A stretch of 64,000 nt of DNA from Pseudomonas mosselii (GTDB lineage Bacteria; Pseudomonadota; Gammaproteobacteria; Pseudomonadales; Pseudomonadaceae). The position numbers were made by a program, and so were the translations under genes. Positions 6,521 to 23,736 of this stretch are shown here, piece by piece. Under the pieces are notes generated by a model, which saw nothing but the letters and a program-made list of their open reading frames with translations, made no database searches and was not told the origin of the DNA. The stretch spans positions 1 through 64,000 of the forward strand of contig NZ_QJRP01000007.1 of the NCBI RefSeq assembly GCF_003205295.1, written 5' to 3'. Every line of letters starts with the position of its first letter. The first letter of the stretch is position 1.

Positions 6521-7494
6521 CATCACCACGTGTTTCGATCGCCAGCCTGGGCGGCACTGTCAGCATGCAATCCGGGGTGCCGGGGCAGGGTGTCACACCT
6601 CGGCTCGATTGCGCCGCGCTGTTGGCGTCCCTGCCGCAACTGCAGGCACTGGCGCAGATCAGCACCGCCACGTTGTGCCTGGTGCCGAGCGCCTCGCTGG
6701 CGTTCAGCGACATGCTGGATGCGCTGGCCTGGGCAAGCGCGCAAGTGCAAGCGGGGGCCCAGGCCGTGGTCCTCACCCAGGGCACCGATACGCTGGAGGA
6801 GACCGCGTATTTCCTCGACCTGCTCTGGCCCCATGACACCCCGCTGATCATGACCGGCGCCATGCGTTCGGCCAGCCAGCCGGGCGCCGATGGTCCGGCG
6901 AACCTGCTGGCGGCGGTGCAGGTTGCAATTGCCGATGGCAGCCGGGGGCGTGGCGTGCTGGTGGTGATCAACGACCAGATCCACCTGGCCGCGCGGGTAC
7001 GCAAGACTGCCAGCCTGGCGATGGCGGCCTTCGAGTCGCCCGGCGCTGGGGCGATAGGGGAAATCGTGGAGGGCAGACCACTTTATCGCCAGGTTGCCAC
7101 GCCACGGCGGGGGTTACCCCTGCCGGTGCAGGTGGATCACCAGGTCGTCTTGCTGGAGGCCTGTCTCGATGCCGATACGAGGCTGCTGCAAGCGCTCGGA
7201 GGCCTGGGCTATTCAGGGGTGGTGGTTGCCGGATTTGGCGCAGGCCATGTCTCTGAAGCCTGGGCCGAGGCGTTGGGGAGCATCGCCGGCAACATGCCGG
7301 TGATCATCGCCACCCGCACTGGCAATGGCCCGACAGCCCTGGGGACCTACGGATTCATCGGCGGCGAGATCGACCTGCAGGCCCGGGGCCTGCACATGGC
7401 CGGCTGGCTCTGCCCGCGCAAGTGCCGACTCTTGCTGTGGCTGCTGATCGGCACCGGGCGGCAGGCCGACCTGGCGCACTGGCTGCAGCAATAG
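6517..7494 (+). CDS. L-asparaginase family protein
   Basis: 325 residues. Both active-site threonine motifs of the asparaginase/glutaminase family are present: IASLGGTVSM at the N-terminus and VLTQGTDTLEETAYF near residue 90. TGAMR, DGPANLL and a RKTAS lysine segment follow. There is no signal peptide, so it is probably cytoplasmic. It normally hydrolyses asparagine (or related amides) to the acid plus ammonia. ATG overlaps the preceding membrane gene stop by four bases, indicating translational coupling. Within this cluster it may act on an amide intermediate rather than asparagine itself; that is inference. Confidence 0.85.
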   Translation: MTSPRVSIASLGGTVSMQSGVPGQGVTPRLDCAALLASLPQLQALAQISTATLCLVPSASLAFSDMLDALAWASAQVQAGAQAVVLTQGTDTLEETAYFLDLLWPHDTPLIMTGAMRSASQPGADGPANLLAAVQVAIADGSRGRGVLVVINDQIHLAARVRKTASLAMAAFESPGAGAIGEIVEGRPLYRQVATPRRGLPLPVQVDHQVVLLEACLDADTRLLQALGGLGYSGVVVAGFGAGHVSEAWAEALGSIAGNMPVIIATRTGNGPTALGTYGFIGGEIDLQARGLHMAGWLCPRKCRLLLWLLIGTGRQADLAHWLQQ

Positions 7495-7578
7495 TCCGAT
7501 GCCCGTTCCCTTGATGGGAGCGGGCAGGCGTTGCCTGTGCTAGGGTGCACGCAAATTTCCGCCCTAGGACACCCGCCC

Positions 7579-8133
7579 ATGCTCCCCGCGCTCAGCGAAA
7601 AAGAACTCGACCGTCTCGAAGACCTGCTGATCACCTACGGCAACGACTATTCGGTGCTCAACCTCGCCGAGCTCAACGGTTTCTTCACCGCTCTGGCCAG
7701 CTCCCCTAGCAAGGTCAATCCCGAGCAATGGCTGCCCTCTGTCGCTGGTGGCAAGGTTCCGAAGTTCAAGAAACCTGCCCATGAAGAGGCCTACACTGCG
7801 TTGATGCTGCGTTATGCCAACCAGGTAGCGGAAGAGCTGGCCGACGACCTCGAACACTTCGAACCTCAGTTTGAGGAGGGCGAAAGCGAAGAGGGCCCGA
7901 CAATCATTCTCGAGGAGTGGTGCTTCGGCTACATGCGCGGTACCCAGGTAGCCGAGTGGAGCGAGCTGCCGCCGGAGCAGGATCGTCTGCTCAAGGCCAT
8001 TTCCCTGCATGGGCTGGAAGACAATTTCGAGCTGCTCGACTCGATGAGCTTCGATGAGCATCAGGCCTGTGTACCGCTGGTGGTCGAGGCGGCGCGGGGG
8101 TTGTATCTGTACCAGAAACAGCACCGTCATTGA
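7579..8133 (+). CDS. YecA/UPF0149 family protein
   Basis: 184 residues, acidic, with LNGFFTALASSP and EEWCFGYMRG, which are landmarks of the UPF0149/YecA family. The C-terminal SEC-C zinc motif found in some members is absent. Start at 7579 follows AGGACA. The molecular role of the family is not settled. It is probably a monocistronic housekeeping gene just after the amino-acid islet. Confidence 0.75.
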   Translation: MLPALSEKELDRLEDLLITYGNDYSVLNLAELNGFFTALASSPSKVNPEQWLPSVAGGKVPKFKKPAHEEAYTALMLRYANQVAEELADDLEHFEPQFEEGESEEGPTIILEEWCFGYMRGTQVAEWSELPPEQDRLLKAISLHGLEDNFELLDSMSFDEHQACVPLVVEAARGLYLYQKQHRH

Positions 8134-8150
8134 GATCGCAAGCGCGGGCG

Positions 8151-8175
8151 GGTGGGAGCGGGCTTGCCCCGTGAT
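8151..8175. repeat. Single REP unit, GGGCTTGCCCCG type
   Basis: A lone GTGGGAGCGGGCTTGCCCCGTGAT element lies in the gap between the YecA and GST genes. The rest of the gap (8176-8295) shows no clear promoter. Confidence 0.65.
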
Positions 8176-8295
8176 TGTGATTATTTCACCTGCCGAAATA
8201 CTGGATTGCTCCCGGCACTGATTCTGCTGTCGGGCGATCCAGTGCAGCATGTCCTCCAGCAGCGCCACTCCCGGCGCTGATCCGGAGCCCCGCAC

Positions 8296-8925
8296 ATGCC
8301 AAGCCCGATCAAGCTGTACAACTTCCCCAAGTCTGGCCACGCCCACCGCATCGAGCTGATGCTGTCGCTGCTCGAACTGCCCACCGAGCTGGTCTTCGTC
8401 GACCTGGCCAAGGGCGAGCACAAGCAGCCAGAGTTTCTCGCCATCAACCCCTTCGGCCAGGTGCCGGTGATCGATGACAACGGCATCGTCATCGCCGATT
8501 CCAACGCCATCCTGGTCTACCTGGCCAAGGCCTACGGCGGTGAGCGCTGGTTGCCTGCGGATCCGGTCGGTGCCGCCCGTGTGCAGCGCTGGCTGTCGGT
8601 GGCGTCGGGTCCACTGGCCTTCGGCCCGGCGGCGGCACGCCTGGTGACGGTGTTCGGTGCCTCGTTCAACACCGACGAAGTCATCGGCCGCGCCCACACC
8701 CTGCTCAAGGTGATCGACGCCGAACTGGCCAAGGGCCCGTTCCTGGTCGGTAGCCAGGCGACCATCGCCGATATCGCCAACTACTCGTACATCGCCCACG
8801 CGCCGGAAGGCAACGTGTCGCTGGAGCCGTACCCCAACGTGCGCGCCTGGCTGGCCCGTGTCGAGGCGCTGCCGGGCTTCGTGCCGATGCCACGTACGGT
8901 CATCGGTTTGCAGACCACGCTCTGA
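8296..8925 (+). CDS. Glutathione S-transferase family protein
   Basis: 209 residues. The N-terminal thioredoxin-like domain shows [29 protein letters not shown] with the cis-proline, and ADSNAIL, which binds the glutathione gamma-glutamyl group. The C-terminal helical domain has the [15 protein letters not shown] signature with its conserved Asp. The substrate is unknown. The next gene starts 18 bp downstream on the same strand, so co-expression with the fused flavoprotein is likely. Confidence 0.85.
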
Positions 8926-8943
8926 CTCCCGAGGTATGCCGCC

Positions 8944-10959
8944 ATGCAATCGCCCTGGCATGCAGGTGAAAAACGGCTGCAGGAGCACGTCGGTGTTGCA
9001 GAGCGCATGGAGGTGTTCGGGCAGAAGGTCATCCGTGACTTCATGCCCGACCAGCATCGCGCGTTCTACCAGCAGTTGCCGTTCCTGGTGGCCGGTGCCG
9101 TGGATGCCGCTGGCACCCCTTGGGCGACGCTGCTCGAAGGCGCGGAAGGCTTCGTCAGCTCGCCCGATCCCCGGCAACTGCTGATTGGCACTGAGCTTGC
9201 CGCCGATGACCCGGCCGCGCCGGGCCTGGTGGACGGCGGTGCCATTGGTTTGCTGGGAATCGAACTGCATACCCGGCGACGCAATCGGCTCAATGGCCTG
9301 ATCCGCAGGGCAGGCGCCGGTCAGCTGGAGGTGGTGGTCGAGCAGTCGTTCGGCAACTGCCCGCAGTACATTCAGCTGCGCGAGTACACCCGCGTCGACA
9401 AGCCGCCGCAGGGGCGCCGGGACTCAGCGGAACTCAATGCCGAGACCCGCGCGATAATCGAGAGCGCCGACACCTTCTTTGTCGCCAGCTACGTCGATCG
9501 AGACGGTGGCCAGCGCTCGGTGGACGTGTCCCATCGCGGTGGCCGGCCTGGTTTCGTCAGGGTCGAGGGCAATCGCCTGACCATTCCCGACTACGCCGGC
9601 AACCTGCATTTCAATACCCTCGGTAATCTGCTGGTCAACCCGGTCGCTGGCCTGGTGTTCGTCGACTTCACCACGGGCGATGTGCTGCAGGTTTCCGGTC
9701 GTACCGAGGTGATTCTCGACAGCCCGCTGATCAGCGCCTTCGAAGGCGCCGAGCGGATCTGGACCCTGGACATCGAGCAGGTGGTGCTGCGCCGGGCTGC
9801 CGTGTCGCTGCGCTGGGCCTTCCAGGAATACGCACCCACCAGCCTGATGACCGGCACCTGGCGCGAAGCCGAGCAGCGCCTGCAACAGCGCGAACGGCAG
9901 CGTCAATGGCTGACCTGGCGGGTACTGCACATCGAGCAGGAGAGTCGCGATATCCGCTCGTTCCATCTGCAACCCGAGGATGGCGCCGCAGTGGCCTTCG
10001 CCCCTGGCCAGCATATTCCCGTGCGTTTGCGCATCGATGGGGAGGCGCCGCTGATCCGTACCTACAGCCTGTCCAGCGCGCCGTCCGATGGCTTCCTGCG
10101 CATCAGCGTCAAGGCGCAGGGGCCGGCGTCACGCTATCTGCACCAACAGGTGAAGGTCGGCGATCGGCTGGAGGTGCGCCAGCCCATGGGCAGCTTCACC
10201 CTGGATCAGCAGAGCGACCGGCCTCTTGTGCTGATCGGTGCGGGCGTCGGCATCACTCCGTTGATTGCCATGCTCCGTGAGCAACTGGCCAAGGGGCTGG
10301 GGCGGCGTATCTACCTTTTTCATGGCGGGCGCACACTGGCCGACTTGCCGTTCCAGCAGGAGCTTGCCGCGCTCCAGCAACACGCCAAGGGCTTGCTGAG
10401 CATCCATCGTGCCCTGAGTCAGCCCGAGCCCTCGGCCGTGCCAGGGCATGACTACCAATTCGCCAGCCGCCTGGGCATCGAGCAAATCAAGGCCACGCTG
10501 GCATTGGACGACTACGACTTCTACCTCTGCGGCCCGGCCAGCTTCACCCAGGACCTGTACGAAGGCCTGCGCGGCGTGCATGTGCCCGACGCCCGCATCC
10601 ATGCCGAAGCCTTCGGCCCCTCGACACTGCGCCGCCACACCGACGACAACCAGCCGACGCTGCAGCAGCCACCACCCGCCAGCGAGCCGGTGCCGGTGTA
10701 CTTCGCCAGCTCCGCCAAGGAAGCGCGTTGGGCGCCGGACAGCGGCACCCTGCTGGAACTGGCGGAAAGCCGTGGCCTGTCGCCGGAGTTCAGCTGCCGA
10801 GGGGGCTCCTGCGGTACCTGCAAGACCAAGCTGGTCAGCGGCCAGGTCCACTACCCGAACCCGCCTGCCGAACTGCCCGAAGCCGGCAGCGTGCTGATCT
10901 GCTGCGCCATCCCCGCCCAGGCCGAGGACGGCGCGCAAGCCGTGGTGCTGGAGCTCTAG
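8944..10959 (+). CDS. Three-part oxidoreductase: PNPOx-like flavin domain, FNR-like reductase, 2Fe-2S ferredoxin
   Basis: 671 residues. The N-terminal ~300 residues resemble pyridoxamine-phosphate oxidase-like split-barrel proteins. The middle has FAD-binding RTYSLSSAP and an NAD(P)-binding LIGAGVGITPLIAML, as in ferredoxin-NADP reductases. The C-terminus is a plant-type [2Fe-2S] domain with FSCRGGSCGTCKTK and a later CC pair. This is a self-contained electron chain from NAD(P)H to an unknown acceptor. Start at 8944 follows a GAGG. The same fusion is known in several proteobacteria, without a settled physiological substrate. Confidence 0.85.
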   Translation: MQSPWHAGEKRLQEHVGVAERMEVFGQKVIRDFMPDQHRAFYQQLPFLVAGAVDAAGTPWATLLEGAEGFVSSPDPRQLLIGTELAADDPAAPGLVDGGAIGLLGIELHTRRRNRLNGLIRRAGAGQLEVVVEQSFGNCPQYIQLREYTRVDKPPQGRRDSAELNAETRAIIESADTFFVASYVDRDGGQRSVDVSHRGGRPGFVRVEGNRLTIPDYAGNLHFNTLGNLLVNPVAGLVFVDFTTGDVLQVSGRTEVILDSPLISAFEGAERIWTLDIEQVVLRRAAVSLRWAFQEYAPTSLMTGTWREAEQRLQQRERQRQWLTWRVLHIEQESRDIRSFHLQPEDGAAVAFAPGQHIPVRLRIDGEAPLIRTYSLSSAPSDGFLRISVKAQGPASRYLHQQVKVGDRLEVRQPMGSFTLDQQSDRPLVLIGAGVGITPLIAMLREQLAKGLGRRIYLFHGGRTLADLPFQQELAALQQHAKGLLSIHRALSQPEPSAVPGHDYQFASRLGIEQIKATLALDDYDFYLCGPASFTQDLYEGLRGVHVPDARIHAEAFGPSTLRRHTDDNQPTLQQPPPASEPVPVYFASSAKEARWAPDSGTLLELAESRGLSPEFSCRGGSCGTCKTKLVSGQVHYPNPPAELPEAGSVLICCAIPAQAEDGAQAVVLEL

Positions 10960-11005
10960 CGTGCGCACAGGGATAATCGCCCCACGACAACGCGTGGGGC
11001 GCGGC

Positions 11006-11905
11006 ATGGACCAGATCCACCTGATGAAAGTGTTCGTGGCCGTGGGCGAGCTGGAAAGCTTCGCCGCCGCCGCCCGCCGCCTGGCCATCTCGCCGGCGGC
11101 GGTGACCCGCGCCGTCAGCGCCCTGGAGGAACAGCTCGGGGTCAAGCTGCTGCTGCGCACCACCCGCAGCGTGCGCCTGACCGAGGCCGGCGGGCGCTAC
11201 CTGGAGGACACCCGGCATATCCTCGCCAGCATCGTCGAGGCCAACGAAGCCGCCGCCGGCATCAACGCCGCGCCCAAGGGCGACCTGGCGGTGACCGCGC
11301 CGATCCTGTTCGGCAAGAAGTTCGTCATGCCGTGCATCGTCCGTTACCTGCAGCAGTACCCCGAGGTGGATGTGTCGGCGTACTTTCTCGACCGCGTGGT
11401 GAACCTGGTGGAGGAGGGCATGGACGTGGCGGTGCGAATCGGCCAGTTGCCCGATTCGGGCCTCAAGGCGTTGCGCGTGGGCAGGATGCGCCGGTTGTTG
11501 TGCGCCTCGCCCGAGTACCTCGAACGCCACGGCACGCCGCGCCATCCCTCGGAATTGCAGAAGCACGAAGTCATCGCCGCCGGGACCCTGTCACCGCGCA
11601 CGGACTGGCGCTTCGGCGCCATCGACGACCCGACGCTGATTCGCATGAAGCCGCGCCTGACCGTGACCAGCAACGACGCCGCCATCGCCGCGGCCAGTGC
11701 CGGGCTCGGGATTGCCCGGCTGCTGTCGTACCAGGTGGCGGACGAAGTGGCGGCCGGGCGCTTGCAGGTGATCCTGGCTGAATACGAGGAAGCGCCCTGG
11801 CCGATCCATATCCTGCATCGGGAGAGCAAATATGGCTCGACCAAGGTGAGGACCTTTATCGATATGTTGGCCGAGCATTTGCGCAGCCAGGCACATCTGG
11901 CTTGA
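11006..11905 (+). CDS. LysR-family transcriptional regulator
   Basis: 299 residues. The N-terminal winged helix-turn-helix (MDQIHLMKVFVAVGELESFA...LAISPAAVTRAVSALE) is followed by a periplasmic-binding-like effector domain. Start at 11006 gives the canonical LysR N-terminus; an upstream in-frame GTG at 10961 would add 15 atypical residues. It lies 46 bp downstream of the fused oxidoreductase on the same strand and may control that gene or the GST. Confidence 0.85.
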   Translation: MDQIHLMKVFVAVGELESFAAAARRLAISPAAVTRAVSALEEQLGVKLLLRTTRSVRLTEAGGRYLEDTRHILASIVEANEAAAGINAAPKGDLAVTAPILFGKKFVMPCIVRYLQQYPEVDVSAYFLDRVVNLVEEGMDVAVRIGQLPDSGLKALRVGRMRRLLCASPEYLERHGTPRHPSELQKHEVIAAGTLSPRTDWRFGAIDDPTLIRMKPRLTVTSNDAAIAAASAGLGIARLLSYQVADEVAAGRLQVILAEYEEAPWPIHILHRESKYGSTKVRTFIDMLAEHLRSQAHLA

Positions 11906-11916
11906 TTCCGGAACCT

Positions 11917-12129
11917 GGGGCTGCTGCGCAGCCCTTTCGCGACACAAGGCCGCTCCCACATGGACCGCGCCAAGCCTGAGCTTCACTCCAAACCCGTAGG
12001 ACCCCAGTTTTTCTGGCGATGCCCGGCATGGCCGGGTCAGCTTCCACAAAGAAGACAGTTGTTCCCACAGGAGCACGTATTCCCCTGTGGGAGCGGCCTC
12101 GTGTCGCGAAAGGGGCGCGCAGCGCCCCC
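11917..12129. repeat. Two inverted REP copies flanking a 120-bp gap
   Basis: GGGGCTGCTGCGCAGCCC... at 11917-11961 and CCTGTGGGAGCGGCCTCGTG... at 12083-12129 are inverted copies of the TGTCGCGAAAGGG-type REP. They fill the gap between convergent genes, so they may serve as transcript ends. Confidence 0.8.
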
Positions 12130-12146
12130 AAGTACCTCAAGCGTAA

Positions 12147-13565
12147 TCAAGACCTCGAAAGCGCCGCACACTCCGCCAGTACCCTCAACCCGCCCATCAC
12201 CTCCGGCGTTATCACCCGCCCCAGGCACACCCGCAACCCAGTGCCACATTCCCCATCGGCAAAGAACATCCCGCTGTCGCCGACATTGCAGCCACGCTCC
12301 GCCGCAAACCGTTGCAGCGCCAGCATGTCCGTCCCTTCCGGCAATTCGATCCAATGGATAAACCCGCCCTGCGGCGCCACATACCGTGTCCCCGTCGGAA
12401 ACACCGACTGCACCAGCGTCGCCATCACCTCGGTCTGCGCTACCAGCCGCCCGCGCAGCTTCGCGCAGTGCTCCTCCATGTACCCCCGCCCGATAAACTC
12501 ATCCAGCACCCGCTGGGCCAGGCTCGACACCGCCAGGTTGCGCGAAAACAGCTGTGCCAGGATCGCATCCCGGTACCGTCCGGCCACGCACCAGCCAACC
12601 CGGTACCCCGGCGCCACGGTCTTGGAGAACGACGAGCAATAGATAGTCTGCCCGGTGCTGTCGTAGTGCTTGATCGCCTTGGGCCGCTGCGCCTCGTCCA
12701 CCAGGTCGAAGAAGATATCGTCCTCGATGATCGGCACATCCGCTGCCTGCGCCAACTGTGACAGCTGTGCCCGCGCCACGTCGGGCATGATGAAGCCCCG
12801 TGGGTTCTGCAGCGTCGGGTTGAGAAACACCACATCGACCTTGCCGCGCTTGAGGGCCCATTCCAGGTGCTCGAGGTCCATGCCGCTGTCGGCGTGGGTG
12901 CGGATGGGCAGGGCGCGCATCCCCAGGCGTTCGATGGTCTGCAGGATGCCGTAGTAGGTAGGTGTCTCGATGGCCACCGTGGCGCCCGGCCGGGCGACGG
13001 CTTCGAGGGCCAGCTCCAGGGCCACGGTGTCGCCCGAGGTCACCAGGATATCGTCCGGCCCGCAGGCCACGCCGCGTTGCAGCATCAGCCCGGCGATGCG
13101 CCGGCGCAGCGAGACCAGGCCCGGCGGAGCGATCAGGCCGGCCAAGGGTAGGCCGGCCTTGGCGGCCAGCGTCGCCAGGCACTTGTTCAGCAGCACCTGG
13201 GGCGTGAGCTCGTCGTGCAGCACTGCCGAGCTCAACGACAGCGCGGTGTTGCTGGCCGCCTGGGCGAGCATGGCGACCACCGCGTGGTTGACGTTGACGG
13301 TGACGCTAGCCAGGTCGAACCCCTGTACCTGGGCCGCGCCCTTGGCGACGAAATAGCCGATCCGCGGCGTGGCCTGCACATAGGCATTGGCCTCCAGCTC
13401 CGCCAGGGCCCGCTGCACGGTGGCGATGCTGCTGTCGAACAGCCGCGCCAGCTCGCGCACCGAGGGCAGTTGCGTGCCGCTGGGCCATTCGCCGCTGTCG
13501 ATCTGGCGCAGCAGCCAGGCGTTGACGGTGTGCCAGCGTTTGTCGGGCTTGGGGTTCCGGTCCAT
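12147..13565 (-). CDS. MocR-type regulator (GntR DNA-binding domain fused to class I aminotransferase-like domain)
   Basis: 472 residues. Residues ~10-75 form a GntR winged helix (SGTQLPSVRELARLFDSSIATVQRALAELEANAY). The remainder is a PLP-binding aminotransferase fold with TSGDTVALELAL, an NPTLQNPRG segment, IIEDDIF and a Schiff-base lysine in YCSSFSKTVAPGYRVGW. Such proteins sense PLP or amino-compound effectors. It begins 17 bp after the stop of the lactate-permease-like gene on the same strand, so it is probably in that transcript and may regulate it. Confidence 0.85.
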   Translation of the reverse strand: MDRNPKPDKRWHTVNAWLLRQIDSGEWPSGTQLPSVRELARLFDSSIATVQRALAELEANAYVQATPRIGYFVAKGAAQVQGFDLASVTVNVNHAVVAMLAQAASNTALSLSSAVLHDELTPQVLLNKCLATLAAKAGLPLAGLIAPPGLVSLRRRIAGLMLQRGVACGPDDILVTSGDTVALELALEAVARPGATVAIETPTYYGILQTIERLGMRALPIRTHADSGMDLEHLEWALKRGKVDVVFLNPTLQNPRGFIMPDVARAQLSQLAQAADVPIIEDDIFFDLVDEAQRPKAIKHYDSTGQTIYCSSFSKTVAPGYRVGWCVAGRYRDAILAQLFSRNLAVSSLAQRVLDEFIGRGYMEEHCAKLRGRLVAQTEVMATLVQSVFPTGTRYVAPQGGFIHWIELPEGTDMLALQRFAAERGCNVGDSGMFFADGECGTGLRVCLGRVITPEVMGGLRVLAECAALSRS

Positions 13566-18204: not shown

Positions 18205-18744
18205 TCAATCGCCAACCCCATGCAACCGCAACGCCCGCTGCGCACATTCCTTCCAGCTCAGCTTGCGCCGCTCGGGCACCACCACGGGTAACTCCGCCGC
18301 CATCACCACCGGCATATCCCGCATTCGTACCCAAGGTTCACTCTGCCAATACAACAGACTCGCCGTATGCCCACCCGGCCAGCACATCCTGCCCAGGCGA
18401 GGCAGGTCTTCCAGCGCCGAGTCCTGCCCATCGCGCAGCACCGCCACCACCTCATGGGTCAGCCAGTGCCGCAGGTGGCGGTTTTCCGGAATGTGGTGAT
18501 GGGCCAGCAGGGTATAGGCACCGGACTCGCTGACCATGGTGGTCTCGCTGTACTGGCCGTAGCGCAGCAGCTGCACGGTGCGATGCTGGTCCGGGTCAAG
18601 CTTGCGGATGCAGTGTTCGTCGAAGAAGCGCCCGGTCATCCGACCGAGTTCGTGGGCGCAGAACCAGGCTTGGGATTCGAGCCAGAGGGTGTGGAGAGGA
18701 CGGTTGTGGCGGGTGAAGAGGGTGGAGTCGTGGAGGTCAGTCAT
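18205..18744 (-). CDS. Bro-N domain protein (phage antirepressor-like)
   Basis: 179 residues from the ATG at 18744, chosen because GGGAGG lies just upstream. The first ~110 residues match the Bro-N domain: WFCAHELGRMTG, RTVQLLRYGQYSETTMVSESGAYTLLAHHH and LRHWLTHEVVAVLRD. Bro-N proteins include phage antirepressors (Ant-like) that bind DNA. The C-terminal ~65 residues are not recognised. On the same strand its leader contains a large inverted-repeat structure and a C4/CI-like antisense RNA candidate, as in phage immunity loci. It is an isolated phage-derived gene; no structural prophage genes are nearby. Confidence 0.75.
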   Translation of the reverse strand: MTDLHDSTLFTRHNRPLHTLWLESQAWFCAHELGRMTGRFFDEHCIRKLDPDQHRTVQLLRYGQYSETTMVSESGAYTLLAHHHIPENRHLRHWLTHEVVAVLRDGQDSALEDLPRLGRMCWPGGHTASLLYWQSEPWVRMRDMPVVMAAELPVVVPERRKLSWKECAQRALRLHGVGD

Positions 18745-18831
18745 GGCTGGCCTCCCTGGTCCTGAGGGAGTGGAATAGGCGGGACGCATGTGCGAAAGGC
18801 CTGCGAACGGTCTCGATAGGCATTTCCTTTA

Positions 18832-18941
18832 CCTCTACGTGATTGCCAGCTTTCTTAGGGCTGGGTGTCGGGAGTTAAGAAAACCCACGTAGAGGCCGGA
18901 CGTATTTCCCTTTCGGGTCTTGTATTGGTCCACTCCCGACA
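18832..18941 (-). promoter_or_regulatory. Structured leader of the Bro-N gene with alternative pairings
   Basis: CCTCTACGTG (18832-18841) pairs with CACGTAGAGG (18886-18895), and TTTCTTA (18851-18857) with TAAGAAA (18876-18882). The loop of this hairpin contains TGTCGGGAGT (18866-18875), which is perfectly complementary to ACTCCCGACA (18932-18941), so a pseudoknot or switch between two folds is possible. On the minus strand CTACGTG and TTTCTTA in this leader are complementary to the exposed loops of the upstream RNA candidate. Confidence 0.6.
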
Positions 18942-18979
18942 TAACACGTTTTTCGCGCGCAGGATTAGACCACGGGCAC

Positions 18980-19060
18980 AAAAAAACCGCATCTGTCGGG
19001 GCGGAACGACCGCTACGTGAGGCGTTTCTTAGGCGCCGACGGCAAATCTAGGTGCCACAC
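18980..19060 (-). ncRNA. Candidate C4/CI-like antisense RNA
   Basis: Read on the minus strand, GTCGG (19040-19036) and CCGAC (18999-18995) close a junction. Inside are GGCG-CCTAAGAAA-CGCC, a single-stranded TCACGTAG and CGG-TCGTT-CCG. The loops TAAGAAA and CACGTAG are complementary to TTTCTTA and CTACGTG in the Bro-N leader. A GCGG then T7 run at about 18990-18980 resembles a terminator. This arrangement parallels phage P1/P7 C4 RNA and P4 CI RNA, which silence antirepressor or replication operons. Assignment is from structure and context only. Confidence 0.5.
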
Positions 19061-19239
19061 TCGATAAGGTCAATAGCTTTCGTGTAGGAGATTTCCGTAA
19101 ATGGCTAGAGTTTCTAATGCCAAGGTGTAGACAAACGATCAGAAAAAATTCTAGTCTGATGGCTATTTAATGGCTTTGCTTAGGGGTTGTCTATTCAATT
19201 TGGTAGAGGTTAAGTGGATTCGAATCATAAGGAGGAGAA

Positions 19240-20289
19240 GTGGGAATACTATTAAGCGAGTCTATAAGGAAGTGGTTATCAAGAAAGGTGCCAGGTCGTG
19301 GTGTTCAGTCATGTTACGACATTCCAGTAATTATTAGTACAGATATAGGACTTCAAAGGAAAAGCAATCAAGACAGAGCAGCAATGCTCAGGCTTGGAGC
19401 AGTAAATGGTGGTCGTGGGATTTTGGCTGTTGTACTGGCTGATGGTATGGGAGGGATGCAGGAAGGAGATAAGTGTGCTGAGTTGGCTATAGCAAGCTTC
19501 TTTAGCTCGCTGTTAGCATATAGAGATTTCAACCTCCAATCGCGGGTGAAGTTTTCTATATTGGAGGCTAATGATCGAGTTAATCATGCTTTTGAGGGGA
19601 GAGGGGGGGCTACCTTAACAGGGTTGATCGTAGATGACGAAGGGAGAGCTTTAATTGTACATGTCGGCGACTCAAGGGCCTATGAGTTTGGTGGCGGAGG
19701 CAGAACCAAACGATTGACTACAGATGATTCTCTACAAGAGGCAGTTGGCGGACATGGGCGGGAACTGCTTCAGTTTGCCGGGATGGGGGCAGGGATTTCA
19801 CCTCACTTAGTAGATGTCTCGTCAGACGCTCAAAGTATTGCGATTACAACTGATGGGGTGCATTACGTCGATTCCAAAACGTTTGACGATATTTTGTACT
19901 ATTCACCTGACATTAAATCTGCGTCAGAAAGAATCTCCGCTCTGTCACGGTGGTGTGGTAGCCCAGATAACGCCTCATCTGCCCTCATGGATCTGCCTGG
20001 GCTTAAGGTTAAGGTCTTAGAGTCGGAACCTGATTCGGTGGAGCTTTGGGATGCTTTTGGGCATGTGTCATTCGCCGAAGTAATAGTTCCAAAGAGCAAT
20101 CTTGCACTGATTCAGCATGAGCTTGGATTGCATGGAAGGAAGGACGAATCTCTAACGAAGAATGAGAGCCAGCGCACAAAGAAGATTAAGTCTTCTAAGG
20201 TGAAAAAGAGAGCTTCTCATGAATTTGAGTTAGATGTAGAGATTAACGGTGGCTCTGCTTCGGAGGGTGGAGATGTTAGTCGCAAATAG
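19240..20289 (+). CDS. PP2C-family Ser/Thr protein phosphatase
   Basis: 349 residues. PP2C motifs occur in order: STDIGLQRKSNQDR (residues 33-46; NQD replaces the usual NED), LADGMGGMQEG (67-76), VHVGDSRAYEF (141-150), TTDDSLQEAV (160-169), ITTDG (202-206) and PDNAS (242-246). The metal-binding aspartates are present, so it should be active. Residues ~300-349 form a Lys/Ser-rich tail. GTG start at 19240 follows GGAGGA four bases upstream. It opens a three-gene operon with two Ser/Thr kinases and is AT-richer than flanking genes, with rare-looking codon use (many AGA, ATA, TTA), suggesting transfer. No membrane segment is seen. Confidence 0.85.
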   Translation: MGILLSESIRKWLSRKVPGRGVQSCYDIPVIISTDIGLQRKSNQDRAAMLRLGAVNGGRGILAVVLADGMGGMQEGDKCAELAIASFFSSLLAYRDFNLQSRVKFSILEANDRVNHAFEGRGGATLTGLIVDDEGRALIVHVGDSRAYEFGGGGRTKRLTTDDSLQEAVGGHGRELLQFAGMGAGISPHLVDVSSDAQSIAITTDGVHYVDSKTFDDILYYSPDIKSASERISALSRWCGSPDNASSALMDLPGLKVKVLESEPDSVELWDAFGHVSFAEVIVPKSNLALIQHELGLHGRKDESLTKNESQRTKKIKSSKVKKRASHEFELDVEINGGSASEGGDVSRK

Positions 20290-21319
20290 GTACGAGGTGT
20301 CATCGGGTGGAGCTGCCGGTGGAATGGGGGAGGTAGTACAGTGTTTTGACACTAACCTGCAGCGTCGCGTTGTTATGAAACGGCTCCAGCCAGGGGTGGA
20401 TACTCGCAGGATTGTTGATGAGCAGATGTCGTTGGCTAAGCTTCGTTCAAAAAACGTGGTGCAGTTATATGATGTTGTTAATTTAAGTGATCGGGGTGTT
20501 TCGGAAGTTGGTATTGTATTGGAGTATATAGATGGCAAGGATTTAGAGCCTGGAAGCTACGAAGTAGGTGTAGAGTATTTAAGGGTTTTGTGGCAGATTG
20601 CTTCGGGTCTGTCAGATATTCATGATGTTGGGATTATTCATCGAGACATTAAGCCAGAAAATATTCGAATTGATCATGATGGCGTTGTAAAGATTTTTGA
20701 CTTCGGGCTGTCTCGTTTCGAAGATGAGGCAAAAACGGTTAGTGTTATTGGTACTGCGGCATACATGGCTCCTGAACTATGGGCGCAGAAGCCAATATCT
20801 TTCACAAAGGCCGTCGATGTTTATGCATTTGGGGTTCTCTGTGTCTCACTTGTGAATAGAGATTTTTCTCTTGTGAGTAAGCTGAGGAATCGAAGAGAAG
20901 ATATTGACGGTGTTTCCTGCCATTTGAAAGGTTTGCACGAAGATATATTGCTTATGATTTCAGCATGCCTGAGTAAAGAGCCTGCTGAGAGGCCTGTCAT
21001 GAGCGAGGTGGCTCGTATGTTGGCGAAGCACCTTTTGAAAAATAAGCATAAGGCTCTAGTTGTGATGAGCGGAAAGGTTCATCAACTTGATGCTGAGAAT
21101 AAGAAGATTGGTTTGAGAGCTCAGGATGTCGGCGAGATAACTATAGTTTATGATGGCTTTGACTTTAAAGTGGAAGCGACTAGTGGTGCGGTTTATTTGA
21201 ATAATACCAGGGTTTCTCCTGGGGATTTAGTTCCAGGATGTTGTGTCATTACATTCGGAGCGGCGGGTAAGAGAAGGTTTGTGACATTCGATGTCTCAAA
21301 TCCGGAGGTTTTGGTATGA
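20273..21319 (+). CDS. Ser/Thr protein kinase with a C-terminal FHA-like region
   Basis: 348 residues from ATG 20273, which follows GGAGG; it overlaps the phosphatase gene by 17 bases. Kinase landmarks: Gly-rich loop GGAAGGMGEVV (12-22), VMK lysine 36, helix C Glu 50, HRDIKPEN (123-130), DFG (143-145), APE (166-168) and VDVYAFG (181-187). All catalytic residues are present. After ~residue 260, a beta-rich segment with GAVYLNNTRVSPGDLVPG and ITFG resembles the end of an FHA phosphothreonine-binding domain, but it is divergent. No transmembrane helix, so it is cytosolic. Substrates are unknown; the adjacent phosphatase and second kinase are natural partners. Confidence 0.85.
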   Translation: MLVANRYEVSSGGAAGGMGEVVQCFDTNLQRRVVMKRLQPGVDTRRIVDEQMSLAKLRSKNVVQLYDVVNLSDRGVSEVGIVLEYIDGKDLEPGSYEVGVEYLRVLWQIASGLSDIHDVGIIHRDIKPENIRIDHDGVVKIFDFGLSRFEDEAKTVSVIGTAAYMAPELWAQKPISFTKAVDVYAFGVLCVSLVNRDFSLVSKLRNRREDIDGVSCHLKGLHEDILLMISACLSKEPAERPVMSEVARMLAKHLLKNKHKALVVMSGKVHQLDAENKKIGLRAQDVGEITIVYDGFDFKVEATSGAVYLNNTRVSPGDLVPGCCVITFGAAGKRRFVTFDVSNPEVLV

Positions 21320-22383
21320 GCCATATTGTAGCCCAGCGATATGAGATTTTAAGGCATGTTGGGAAGGGTGGGATGCAAGATGTATTTCTTGCTAAAGACC
21401 ATTTATTACAGTGTGAAGTTGCGCTTAAAACACCTCAGGCAGGCCAGGTTCTGAGGCGATTCAGTCAAAGTGCAATTATTGCGGCAAAGGTAAATCATCA
21501 TAATGTCGCAAAAACATTAGATTATTTTGAGGATGAAGGAAAAGCTTACCTGATTGAAGAGTATGTTCCTGGGCGGACGCTTGAAAAGGTAATTGAGGAG
21601 TTTGGAGCGGTAGATCCTCATCTCGGGGCACGAGTATTTCTCCATTTGGCAAAGGGTGTTGCCGCATCCCATTACGTAGATGTCATTCATCGTGATTTGA
21701 AACCTAGTAATATAATTGTCGGTCCAGGAGTGAATCTTCATCAGCTAAAAATAACAGACTTTGGTATTGCTACTTTTACCAAGGAGGTGTTGGATGAGGC
21801 TGCAAAAGATGGTGGTGATCTGACAAATTCAACCTCGGGCACTATTAAAGGGGCGCTGCCTTATATGGCGCCAGAAATGATGTTCCGCTCTCCTGGGGAT
21901 CATCCAGGGAAAAGTACAGATATCTGGTCACTTGGCGCTTTGATGTTTAGAGTGCTGACTGGAGACTACCCGTTTGGTGTGTATTTAGAGGCGGCTGTAA
22001 ATGTTAAGACTGGACAGCGTGCCGCTTGGCCAGGCTTTATGACGAGTAATCCTCAGTATAAGATTCTTTCAGAGCAACTGCAGTTGATAGTTGAAAGTTG
22101 TTTGCAATCTGACTTAAAGGCACGACCTACTGCCGGGGAGCTTGTAAGGTCGTTATCGGATCTTTGCTTTATTTGTGGCGACCGCTACGAGGGAGAGTTA
22201 CTTAATCTTATTCAAAATGGGTATAGTGGTTTTGTAATGGGTGGGGATGGGTTGCAATCATTCTTTAGTATGGAAAGTATTTATGGGTTGCAGAAGCCTT
22301 CAAATGAGCGGCGGAGGGTTTGCTATTCAAGGTTCCCTGGGTCACCTCATTTCAGAGGGCATCCAATGGTCGTTATGAGATAA
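21316..22383 (+). CDS. Second Ser/Thr protein kinase, with an atypical helix C and unknown C-terminal domain
   Basis: 355 residues; its ATG overlaps the previous stop (ATGA). GKGGMQDVFLAKD (16-28), Lys38, HRDLKPSN (125-132), DFG (148-150), APE (185-187) and TDIWSLG (201-207) are intact. At the position of the helix C glutamate there is Ser52 (RRFSQSAIIAAKV), so the usual Lys-Glu salt bridge is missing. The activation segment is long (about 34 residues between DFG and APE). Residues 284-355, starting CFICGDRYEGEL and ending FPGSPHFRGHP, form an unrecognised basic C-terminal domain. It may be autophosphorylation-limited, a pseudo-activator, or a substrate of the first kinase. Confidence 0.85.
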   Translation: MSHIVAQRYEILRHVGKGGMQDVFLAKDHLLQCEVALKTPQAGQVLRRFSQSAIIAAKVNHHNVAKTLDYFEDEGKAYLIEEYVPGRTLEKVIEEFGAVDPHLGARVFLHLAKGVAASHYVDVIHRDLKPSNIIVGPGVNLHQLKITDFGIATFTKEVLDEAAKDGGDLTNSTSGTIKGALPYMAPEMMFRSPGDHPGKSTDIWSLGALMFRVLTGDYPFGVYLEAAVNVKTGQRAAWPGFMTSNPQYKILSEQLQLIVESCLQSDLKARPTAGELVRSLSDLCFICGDRYEGELLNLIQNGYSGFVMGGDGLQSFFSMESIYGLQKPSNERRRVCYSRFPGSPHFRGHPMVVMR

Positions 22384-22445
22384 TGTGGTTTTAACTAATG
22401 GCTTTTCGTGTTGCTAAGTTTTGAAGATGAATGGTTTCCGAATAT

Positions 22446-22472
22446 AAAAAGGCTGCCTTGGGCAGCCTTTTT
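22446..22472. terminator. Bidirectional Rho-independent terminator
   Basis: AAAAAGGCTGCC-TTG-GGCAGCCTTTTT has a 7-bp GC stem flanked by A5 and T5. It serves both the kinase operon and the convergent nrdB gene and marks one boundary of the AT-rich island. Confidence 0.85.
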
Positions 22473-22485
22473 ATTCAAATAAGCG

Positions 22486-23736
22486 TCAATCCCAGCTCAA
22501 CGCCCCACCAGTCTGATACTCAATCACCCGAGTCTCAAAGAAGTTCTTCTCCTTCTTCAAGTCCATGATCTCACTCATCCAAGGGAACGGGTTAGTCGTC
22601 CCCGGATACTCTTCCTTCAGACCAATCTGGGTCAGTCGACGGTTAGCAATGAACTTGAGGTAATCCTCCATCATCGCCGCGTTCATGCCCAGCACGCCGC
22701 GTGGCATGGTGTCACGGGCGTATTCGATCTCCAGCTGGGTACCCTGCAGAATCATCTGGGTAGCCTCTTCCTTCATCGCGGCATCCCACAGGTGCGGGTT
22801 CTCGATCTTGATCTGGTTGATCACGTCGATGCCAAAGTTCAGGTGCATGGACTCGTCGCGCAGGATGTACTGGAACTGCTCGGCGACGCCGGTCATCTTG
22901 TTGCGGCGGCCCATGGACAGGATCTGGGTGAAGCCGCAGTAGAAGAAGATGCCTTCCAGGACGCAGTAGTAGGCGATCAGGTTGCGCAGCAGCTCTTTGT
23001 CGGTCTCGACGGTGCCGGTGTTGAACTCCGGGTCCGAGATGGCACGGGTGTACTTCAGGCCCCAGGCGGCTTTTTTCGCGACCGACGGGATCTCGTGGTA
23101 CATGTTGAAGATCTCGCCTTCATCCATGCCCAGCGACTCGATGCAGTACTGGTAGGCGTGGGTGTGGATCGCCTCTTCGAAGGCCTGGCGCAGGATGTAC
23201 TGGCGGCACTCCGGGTTGGTGATCAGGCGGTACACGGCCAGGGCCAGGTTGTTGGCAACCAGCGAGTCGGCGGTGGAGAAGAAGCCGAGGTTGCGCATCA
23301 CGATGCGGCGCTCGTCTTCGGTCAGGCCGTCCATGCTCTTCCACAGGGCGATGTCGGCGGTCATGTTGACCTCTTGCGGCATCCAGTGGTTGGCGCAGCC
23401 ATCGAGGTACTTCTGCCAGGCCCAGTCGTACTTGAACGGGACCAGCTGGTTGAGGTCGGCGCGGCAATTGATCATGCGCTTTTCATCGACCGCGACACGG
23501 GCCGAGGAGCCTTCCAGCTCGGCCAGGCCTTCAGCGATGTCCAGGGCGTCCAGCGCAGCCTTGGCGCGCTTGACGGCGTCGGAGTCGGCGGCGGTGGCGG
23601 CACGGGCTTCCAGGGCGGCGGCACCGCCGGCGCTGTCGAGCTTGTCGAGGGTGGTGGCGGCTGCGGCCTGCGCGGGGGTGTTGCCTTTGGCGGCGACTTC
23701 ACCGTCTTCTTTGTCGAATTCGTCCCAGCTCAGCAT
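22486..23736 (-). CDS. nrdB: Class Ia ribonucleoside-diphosphate reductase, beta subunit
   Basis: 416 residues. The diiron/tyrosyl-radical subunit, pairing with NrdA. Metal ligand regions are seen: [10 protein letters not shown] (Asp), [20 protein letters not shown] (Glu, His and the radical Tyr) and [15 protein letters not shown] (Glu and His). A ~70-residue Ala-rich N-terminal extension precedes the conserved domain, as usual in pseudomonads. The C-terminal tail that docks on NrdA is present. It is transcribed apart from nrdA: a terminator and its own NrdR-box promoter lie between them. Confidence 0.95.

Follow-up and report, generated by a model that had tools for sequence, protein, structure and literature searches.

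The window analysed here, 64,000 nucleotides of Pseudomonas mosselii (contig NZ_QJRP01000007.1), carries an operon of a PP2C phosphatase gene and two Ser/Thr kinase genes that is a further member of the kinase-kinase-phosphatase (KKP) family. We hold with good confidence that the operon is KKP-like in gene order and, judged from sequence and structure prediction, in domain architecture, likely making up a phosphorylation-based toxin-antitoxin switch that would arrest the cell on phage infection. The operon itself belongs to a known system; its surroundings are the newer part. Here we favour, if less firmly, the reading that KKP is one of the interchangeable cargoes at a Pseudomonas chromosomal site, an unreported defence hotspot located between the nrdB terminator and a fixed unit of the motif GTTTCTTAGGC, the small RNA (sRNA) sRNA-Xcc1 and a BRO-N gene, and that it provides stand-alone immunity uncoupled from any prophage.

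KKP was described in 2024 by Guo et al. as a phage-defence switch (PMC11341870). According to the sections of that paper used here, more than 1200 clusters are known, including that of Pf6 in P. aeruginosa MPAO1, and a KKP consists of a PP2C gene followed by two kinase genes, each 900-1300 bp long (the criterion being >900 and <1300 bp); the C-terminal domain is of the FHA type in the first kinase (PfkB) and a cold-shock domain with a GFI or GFA motif in the second (PfkA). The window operon shows the same order in one orientation, and all three genes lie within this length range (Table 1), kinase 1 also when read from an in-frame GTG at 20249, upstream of its ATG, which gives 1071 bp. The phosphatase matches PF13672 (32.3 bits, gathering cut-off 24) and both kinases match PF00069 above the gathering cut-off (E about 1.6e-39 to 1.7e-39 for kinase 1 and 6.1e-42 for kinase 2). 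GGM, HRD and DFG motifs are present in both kinases, and the two residues previously proposed for kinase-dead versions, Asp125 of kinase 1 (counted from the ATG) and Asp127 of kinase 2, are indeed the HRD aspartates. Across the related loci introduced below, HRD and DFG are found in 26/26 first and 27/27 second kinases, and GGM in 17/26 and 27/27, respectively. The preliminary description of this DNA had proposed a defence or stress module, possibly undescribed. Its defence part stands, by family and by context, whereas an undescribed system was rejected on the published KKP architecture (PMC11341870, as far as the consulted sections go) together with the domain tests; homologues in a type VI secretion system (T6SS) or another known cluster had been counted against that proposal, and they do sit in a known cluster type, namely KKP.

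Table 1 Features of the operon and its site in the window.
Feature	Position	Strand	Remarks
BRO-N gene	18205-18789	-	PF02498, 3.4e-7; beside nrdB in relatives too; hotspot edge
sRNA-Xcc1 homologue	18858-18941	-	RF02221, 63.1 bits, gathering cut-off 53; hotspot edge
GTTTCTTAGGC conserved motif	19024-19034	+	Start of variable cargo
PP2C phosphatase gene	19240-20289	+	1050 bp; GTG start, preceded by AGGAGG at 19230-19235
Ser/Thr kinase 1 gene	20273-21319	+	1047 bp from ATG; PfkB-like; PF00069
Kinase 1 C-terminal domain	21017-21316	+	Predicted FHA fold
Ser/Thr kinase 2 gene	21316-22383	+	1068 bp; PfkA-like; PF00069, 6.1e-42
Kinase 2 C-terminal domain	22147-22380	+	Predicted cold-shock fold; GFV replacing GFI/GFA
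Inverted repeat	22444-22474	.	Perfect 14-nt, A/T tails; between convergent kinase 2 and nrdB
nrdB	22486-23736	-	NF005550, 715.7 bits, cut-off 309; core-gene edge of hotspot

Both kinases carry an additional C-terminal domain, a feature missed in the preliminary description. In kinase 1, this domain is predicted to adopt the FHA fold that a KKP PfkB requires. The tail of kinase 2 gave a profile match to CspB (E 1.2e-5), and the fold prediction was also cold-shock. GF followed by I, A, V or L is present in 21 of the 22 aligned kinase 2 rows (alignment A1; L019 lacks the motif), with the valine of the window version lying outside the GFI/GFA pair that PMC11341870, in the part consulted, names for KKP.

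Several results weigh against the KKP assignment. At E<=10, neither PF00498 (FHA) nor PF00313 (cold-shock) was reported for the window kinases, and the domain filter of PMC11341870, as outlined in the sections used, might therefore have missed or excluded this branch. A sequence-profile search with the kinase 1 tail found no FHA match, and Foldseek returned hits at E>=0.056 only. No experimentally tested KKP module sequence was identified by name in the collections searched, and for the nearest named phage-like module from E. coli (L026), identity to the window is 47% in kinase 2 and 39% in kinase 1. Among contigs from IMG/VR, an integrase was present in 0/4 of those found with alignment A1 (and in 6/7 of those found with the E. 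coli kinase). PF00498 and PF00313 were likewise unreported in the E. coli (L026) and Klebsiella phage (L001) modules, which have the same architecture; PF00313 was also absent among the families matched by the 22 kinase 2 family members of A1, and L026 kinase 2 gave a weak S1-like Pfam match (E 0.084). Canonical phosphothreonine-binding FHA domains have an Arg and a Ser-x-x-His pair. The invariant columns of the kinase 1 tail alignment (A5) include neither, so the ligand of the FHA-fold tail may differ from that of classical FHA domains. The unmatched Pfam FHA and cold-shock models and these missing residues would fit a kinase-phosphatase defence or stress module other than KKP, alike in gene order only. 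However, both predicted tail folds and the GF motif agree with KKP, and the tails align with those of modules found via the E. coli kinase, which makes a non-KKP module very unlikely.

The phosphatase is predicted from its sequence to be a PfpC-like antitoxin. It matches PHROG 17277 (E 2.9e-70), and the PP2C motifs are kept at >=95% in 80 sequences, the window protein included. Its tail (20160-20286) consists of a Lys-rich linker followed by a conserved C-terminal stretch, with the majority consensus EDxQLEIxIE in the 80 sequences and EFELDVEIN in the window; this could possibly be a docking peptide on the kinases. As generic kinase and PP2C models score, we also considered an ordinary PrkC/PrpC-type or T6SS-type Ser/Thr signalling pair with an extra kinase. 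Yet the operon proteins stay under the curated cut-off of every NCBIfam model listed, including NF033483 and NF033484: the kinases reach 138.7 and 163.5 bits with the PknB/Stk1 PASTA equivalog, for which 450 are needed, and the phosphatase 75.4 bits versus 230 with the model for the PASTA-kinase partner (Stp1/IreP). Pfam searches of seven neighbouring open reading frames (ORFs) returned nrdA, nrdB, MocR, BRO-N, an XRE regulator and two ORFs without a match, thus no T6SS, PASTA or cell-wall gene, and the earlier statement that the usual partners are lacking holds for these neighbours. Together with two kinases bearing predicted FHA and cold-shock folds in their tails, this leaves an ordinary signalling pair scarcely credible. 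In PADLOC, the single-kinase defence proteins PD-T4-6, MADS MAD6 and Mokosh MkoA match the window kinase domain, with the window kinases remaining below the curated MAD6 cut-off; to our knowledge, none of these systems has a PP2C antitoxin or a kinase pair with FHA and cold-shock domains.

The reading frames of the operon overlap by 17 bases (PP2C/kinase 1) and 4 bases (kinase 1/kinase 2), as had been described, which suggests that translation of the three genes is coupled and would fit a fixed toxin:antitoxin ratio. The single terminator proposed for the operon end corresponds to the inverted repeat at 22444-22474, which is likely common to kinase 2 and nrdB; a simple terminator scan did not include it in its list. 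The operon is foreign in composition, with a GC content of 44.6% over 19038-22445 versus 63.9% window-wide, and a GC content at third codon positions of 0.38-0.41 in its three genes versus 0.78-0.89 for the BRO-N, GNAT, MocR, nrdB and nrdA genes; the XRE gene lies in between (0.60). The contrast with the flanking genes noticed earlier is thereby confirmed, and the idea of a self-contained phosphorylation switch on a foreign island is likewise supported. Upstream of the operon lie the BRO-N gene, the XRE regulator, an acetyltransferase gene and the MocR gene.

Kinase 2 has 2473 homologues at E<=1e-20 among 6973 candidates, and the best 120 of these 2473 measure 335-365 aa. The search for the complete three-gene set suggested in the preliminary description was made in 27 loci, comprising 25 related loci, one Klebsiella phage and one E. 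coli plasmid, some of them near-identical; L024 and L025, with 27-32% identity over the kinase domain only, were excluded beforehand. A PP2C match lies upstream in 26 of the 27 (as a shortened ORF in L037; the exception, L011, ends with its contig), and the 4-base overlap between the kinase genes recurs in 25, the exceptions being L020 (1 base) and L022 (cut at a contig end). In its own genus, the KKP module is rare: kinase 2 relatives at E<=1e-25 were found in 4 of the 298 genomes of the genus sample, own genome included. This patchy distribution would be expected of a decayed relic on an old island. Such decay is hard to reconcile with genes that contain no stops and have kept their length and intact catalytic motifs, kinase 2 being 79% identical over its full length to its nearest homologue among the matches listed, and we give it very little credence. 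Klebsiella phage Kp4865-2 (OK490418.1) has the same triplet (65% identity in kinase 2, 50% in kinase 1 and 43% in PP2C) but differs in that its record, annotated 'UNVERIFIED', has integrase matches close downstream and, by eye, insertion-sequence-like ORFs. Another phage-borne homologue is on an E. coli element whose annotation includes P2-type capsid genes. Searches of viral contigs found relatives with alignment A1 and with the E. coli kinase as query, none with the window kinase or L009, and a megablast search with the Klebsiella phage triplet returned nothing from E. coli genomes.

By analogy with tested KKP modules, the two kinases together would be the toxin, with host proteins of replication, translation and division as their phosphorylation targets, so that growth stops. 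The phosphatase would normally reverse this phosphorylation and keep the kinases in check, until a protein of an infecting phage blocks it and the released kinases arrest the cell. A phage protein of this kind, Gp59, inhibits the phosphatase of the E. coli 15EC039 KKP module (PMC11341870, sections consulted). On this analogy, the window operon likely halts cell growth on phage infection. The same sections report that the tested P. aeruginosa module serves both prophage control and phage defence, and that >90% of the counted KKPs reside in prophages, with 114 cases outside, 70 of them linked to mobile-element genes. Both reports would suit a module that mainly controls a resident prophage via an H-NS-like silencer, as with MvaU/Pf6, defence being secondary or absent. 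For the window copy we consider this improbable, because no prophage was seen around it among the seven scanned neighbours (the prophage search did not extend to the remainder of the genome), the AT-rich cargo has space for three genes only and the site matches defence families in relatives. Set beside the KKPs of PMC11341870, again as far as its consulted sections go, the window copy shares order, lengths, GF motif, catalytic motifs and foreign composition, and is unlike them in having no prophage seen around it, in its GFV, in its Pfam-diverged tails and in its probable place as cargo of a chromosomal hotspot.

The hotspot context supports the defence reading independently of KKP homology. 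In the window, the BRO-N gene, the sRNA-Xcc1 homologue and GTTTCTTAGGC precede the cargo in this order, and eight aligned loci diverge past GTTTCTTAGGC. Positions 18205-19034 thus form a conserved unit that ends at variable cargo. The 'phage-derived elements' previously placed here are instead the BRO-N gene and the sRNA-Xcc1 homologue, which recur in relatives as a fixed edge of the site. Our first site set comprised 20 relatives, taken from 57 genomes of which 48 have an nrdB match, and covered 5-8 kb downstream of nrdB. KKP genes had no match in this stretch in any of the 20, and conservation at the locus in all relatives with normal codon usage, which would have spoken against the preliminary proposal, is therefore not what is seen, codon usage being abnormal as well. 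In 14 of these relatives, the distance from nrdB to a BRO-N gene of the same orientation (a fragment in L072 and L075) is 154-7085 bp, with varying cargo in between. Seven of the 14 have the sRNA at gathering score and 11 have GTTTCTTAGGC, four of these without the sRNA. The six stretches lacking BRO-N contain neither sRNA nor GTTTCTTAGGC, for the sRNA partly an artefact of the 8-kb stretch; two genomes called sRNA-less within 8 kb (G015 and G023) have the sRNA at 10.3 and 12.5 kb.

Over the genus sample, sRNA-Xcc1 was detected in 33 of 149 genomes (the filters lose weak matches), and 30 of these 33 have it downstream of nrdB and on the nrdB strand, at a distance of 0.3-14.8 kb. The remaining three are G085, with the sRNA on other contigs, and G101 and G108, for which the place of nrdB is not listed; five extra sRNA copies (G085, G022 and G050) are on contigs without a listed nrdB place. 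The P. mosselii genome itself has the sRNA once and the 11-mer GTTTCTTAGGC twice. A second set consisted of 20 gaps from the 33 sRNA-positive genomes, leaving out the own genome, seven of the first set, G096 and G130 (the shortest gaps, of 0.3 and 0.8 kb), G085, G101 and G108. BRO-N follows the sRNA in 20/20 gaps, 43-166 bp away and on the same strand, and GTTTCTTAGGC lies 85-100 bp to the cargo side of the sRNA in 18/20; it is absent in L134, and in L133 it is shifted to a distance of 1.4 kb by what look, by eye, like two transposase ORFs in between. Outside these positions, the 141,248 bases of the same loci contain the core TTTCTTAGG three times, a count that takes in the displaced L133 copy. 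Two further candidate features were rejected. A TTTCTTAGG direct repeat around the sRNA is not general, as both copies are near the sRNA in only 10/20 further loci. The sRNA as a tag of long cargo, at first present in 7/8 loci with a gap >=3.4 kb and 0/6 with a gap <=2.1 kb, was dropped once later genomes had it 0.3, 0.8 and 1.75 kb from nrdB.

By similarity matches, the site in relatives holds genes of other defence families. One or two ORFs per gap were scanned with PADLOC (E<=1e-10) in 19 of the 20 gaps of the second set (L130, which resembles L128, was left out; in L134 and L136 a methylase-like and a Vsr-like ORF were picked by eye and are not the longest). A defence family was matched in 15/19 gaps compared to 1/10 control ORFs, the latter by a short partial match, the control being ten large, hand-picked ORFs from other parts of the window; KKP here accordingly looks like free-standing immune cargo. 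The matches were SIR2 with HerA (L127), an AriA/HEC-04-like ATPase (L129), PDC-S06 (L133), methylases (L134, L135, L141, L146), Vsr (L136), a ZorD/DpdE-like helicase (L138), a CBASS cyclase (L140) and MzaC, which recurs at the nrdB site in five genomes (L137, L139, L142, L143, L144). In L128, L131, L132 and L145, the scanned ORF matched no PADLOC family at this threshold; their cargo comprises candidate unknown defence genes, with that of L131 judged by eye to look like genes of ordinary metabolism. Of the 14 gaps of the first set, 10 contain ORFs of at least 100 aa, 36 in all, and four contain none. Pfam matched cytosine methylase in three of these proteins and, in one or two apiece, EcoRII, Vsr, GmrSD, PRTase-CE, ORC-CDC6-like and putative AbiC domains; PADLOC gave matches as well. 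An AMP-binding enzyme, GrpB, HIT and an acetyltransferase are among the ordinary genes that were also present. Defence genes extend past the nrdB-BRO gap, since ORFs beyond BRO-N (A3, 61/62) also match PADLOC (type IV restriction models on up to five, methylase and type II nuclease models), so that by these matches some genomes have an island larger than the gap. The fixed GTTTCTTAGGC/sRNA-Xcc1/BRO-N unit would mark, and may help the exchange of, immune systems such as SIR2-HerA, Mza, CBASS, restriction-modification and KKP.

In the literature searched, the nrdB/sRNA-Xcc1/BRO-N hotspot was not found in print, and neither 'defense hotspot' nor 'hotspot' was paired with nrdB. The closest likeness is to cDHS1 and cDHS2 of P. 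aeruginosa (PMC10250203), which also have core-gene flanks and variable defence cargo, with low GC in cDHS1. In the portion of that paper available, their flanks are MerR/DUF4011 and tmRNA/VOC/LysR/RidA, unlike nrdB and sRNA-Xcc1/BRO-N here, and 'nrd' does not occur; likewise, 'nrdA' and 'ribonucleotide' are absent from the accessible part of PMC12629846. The parts of earlier reports consulted place sRNA-Xcc1 together with symE in an integron cassette of Xanthomonas and also in Xylella islands, and the section seen of PMC12444791, which combines sRNA-Xcc1 with anti-phage terms, has Xanthomonas integrons as its subject. If our reading of the site is true, it shifts KKP away from the role of a prophage regulator that has a defence side and towards that of an immune operon standing free on the chromosome, and the copy described here would allow its defence role to be probed separately from any KKP-carrying prophage. 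Marked by a core gene, a small RNA and a BRO-N gene, the site offers a simple search handle, and whatever lies between nrdB and sRNA-Xcc1/BRO-N without matching a known system would be a ready list of candidate defence genes.

Two observations concern KKP-like triplets at other loci. L012 (Alcaligenaceae bacterium) and L013 (Stutzerimonas) have near-alike KKP triplets at about 6800-13500 with similar flanking ORFs, a likeness that suggests a recent transfer. In L092, a locus of the window's own genus, a C4 antisense RNA (RF01695; 6607-6693) lies just upstream of a further KKP-like triplet (7150-10512).

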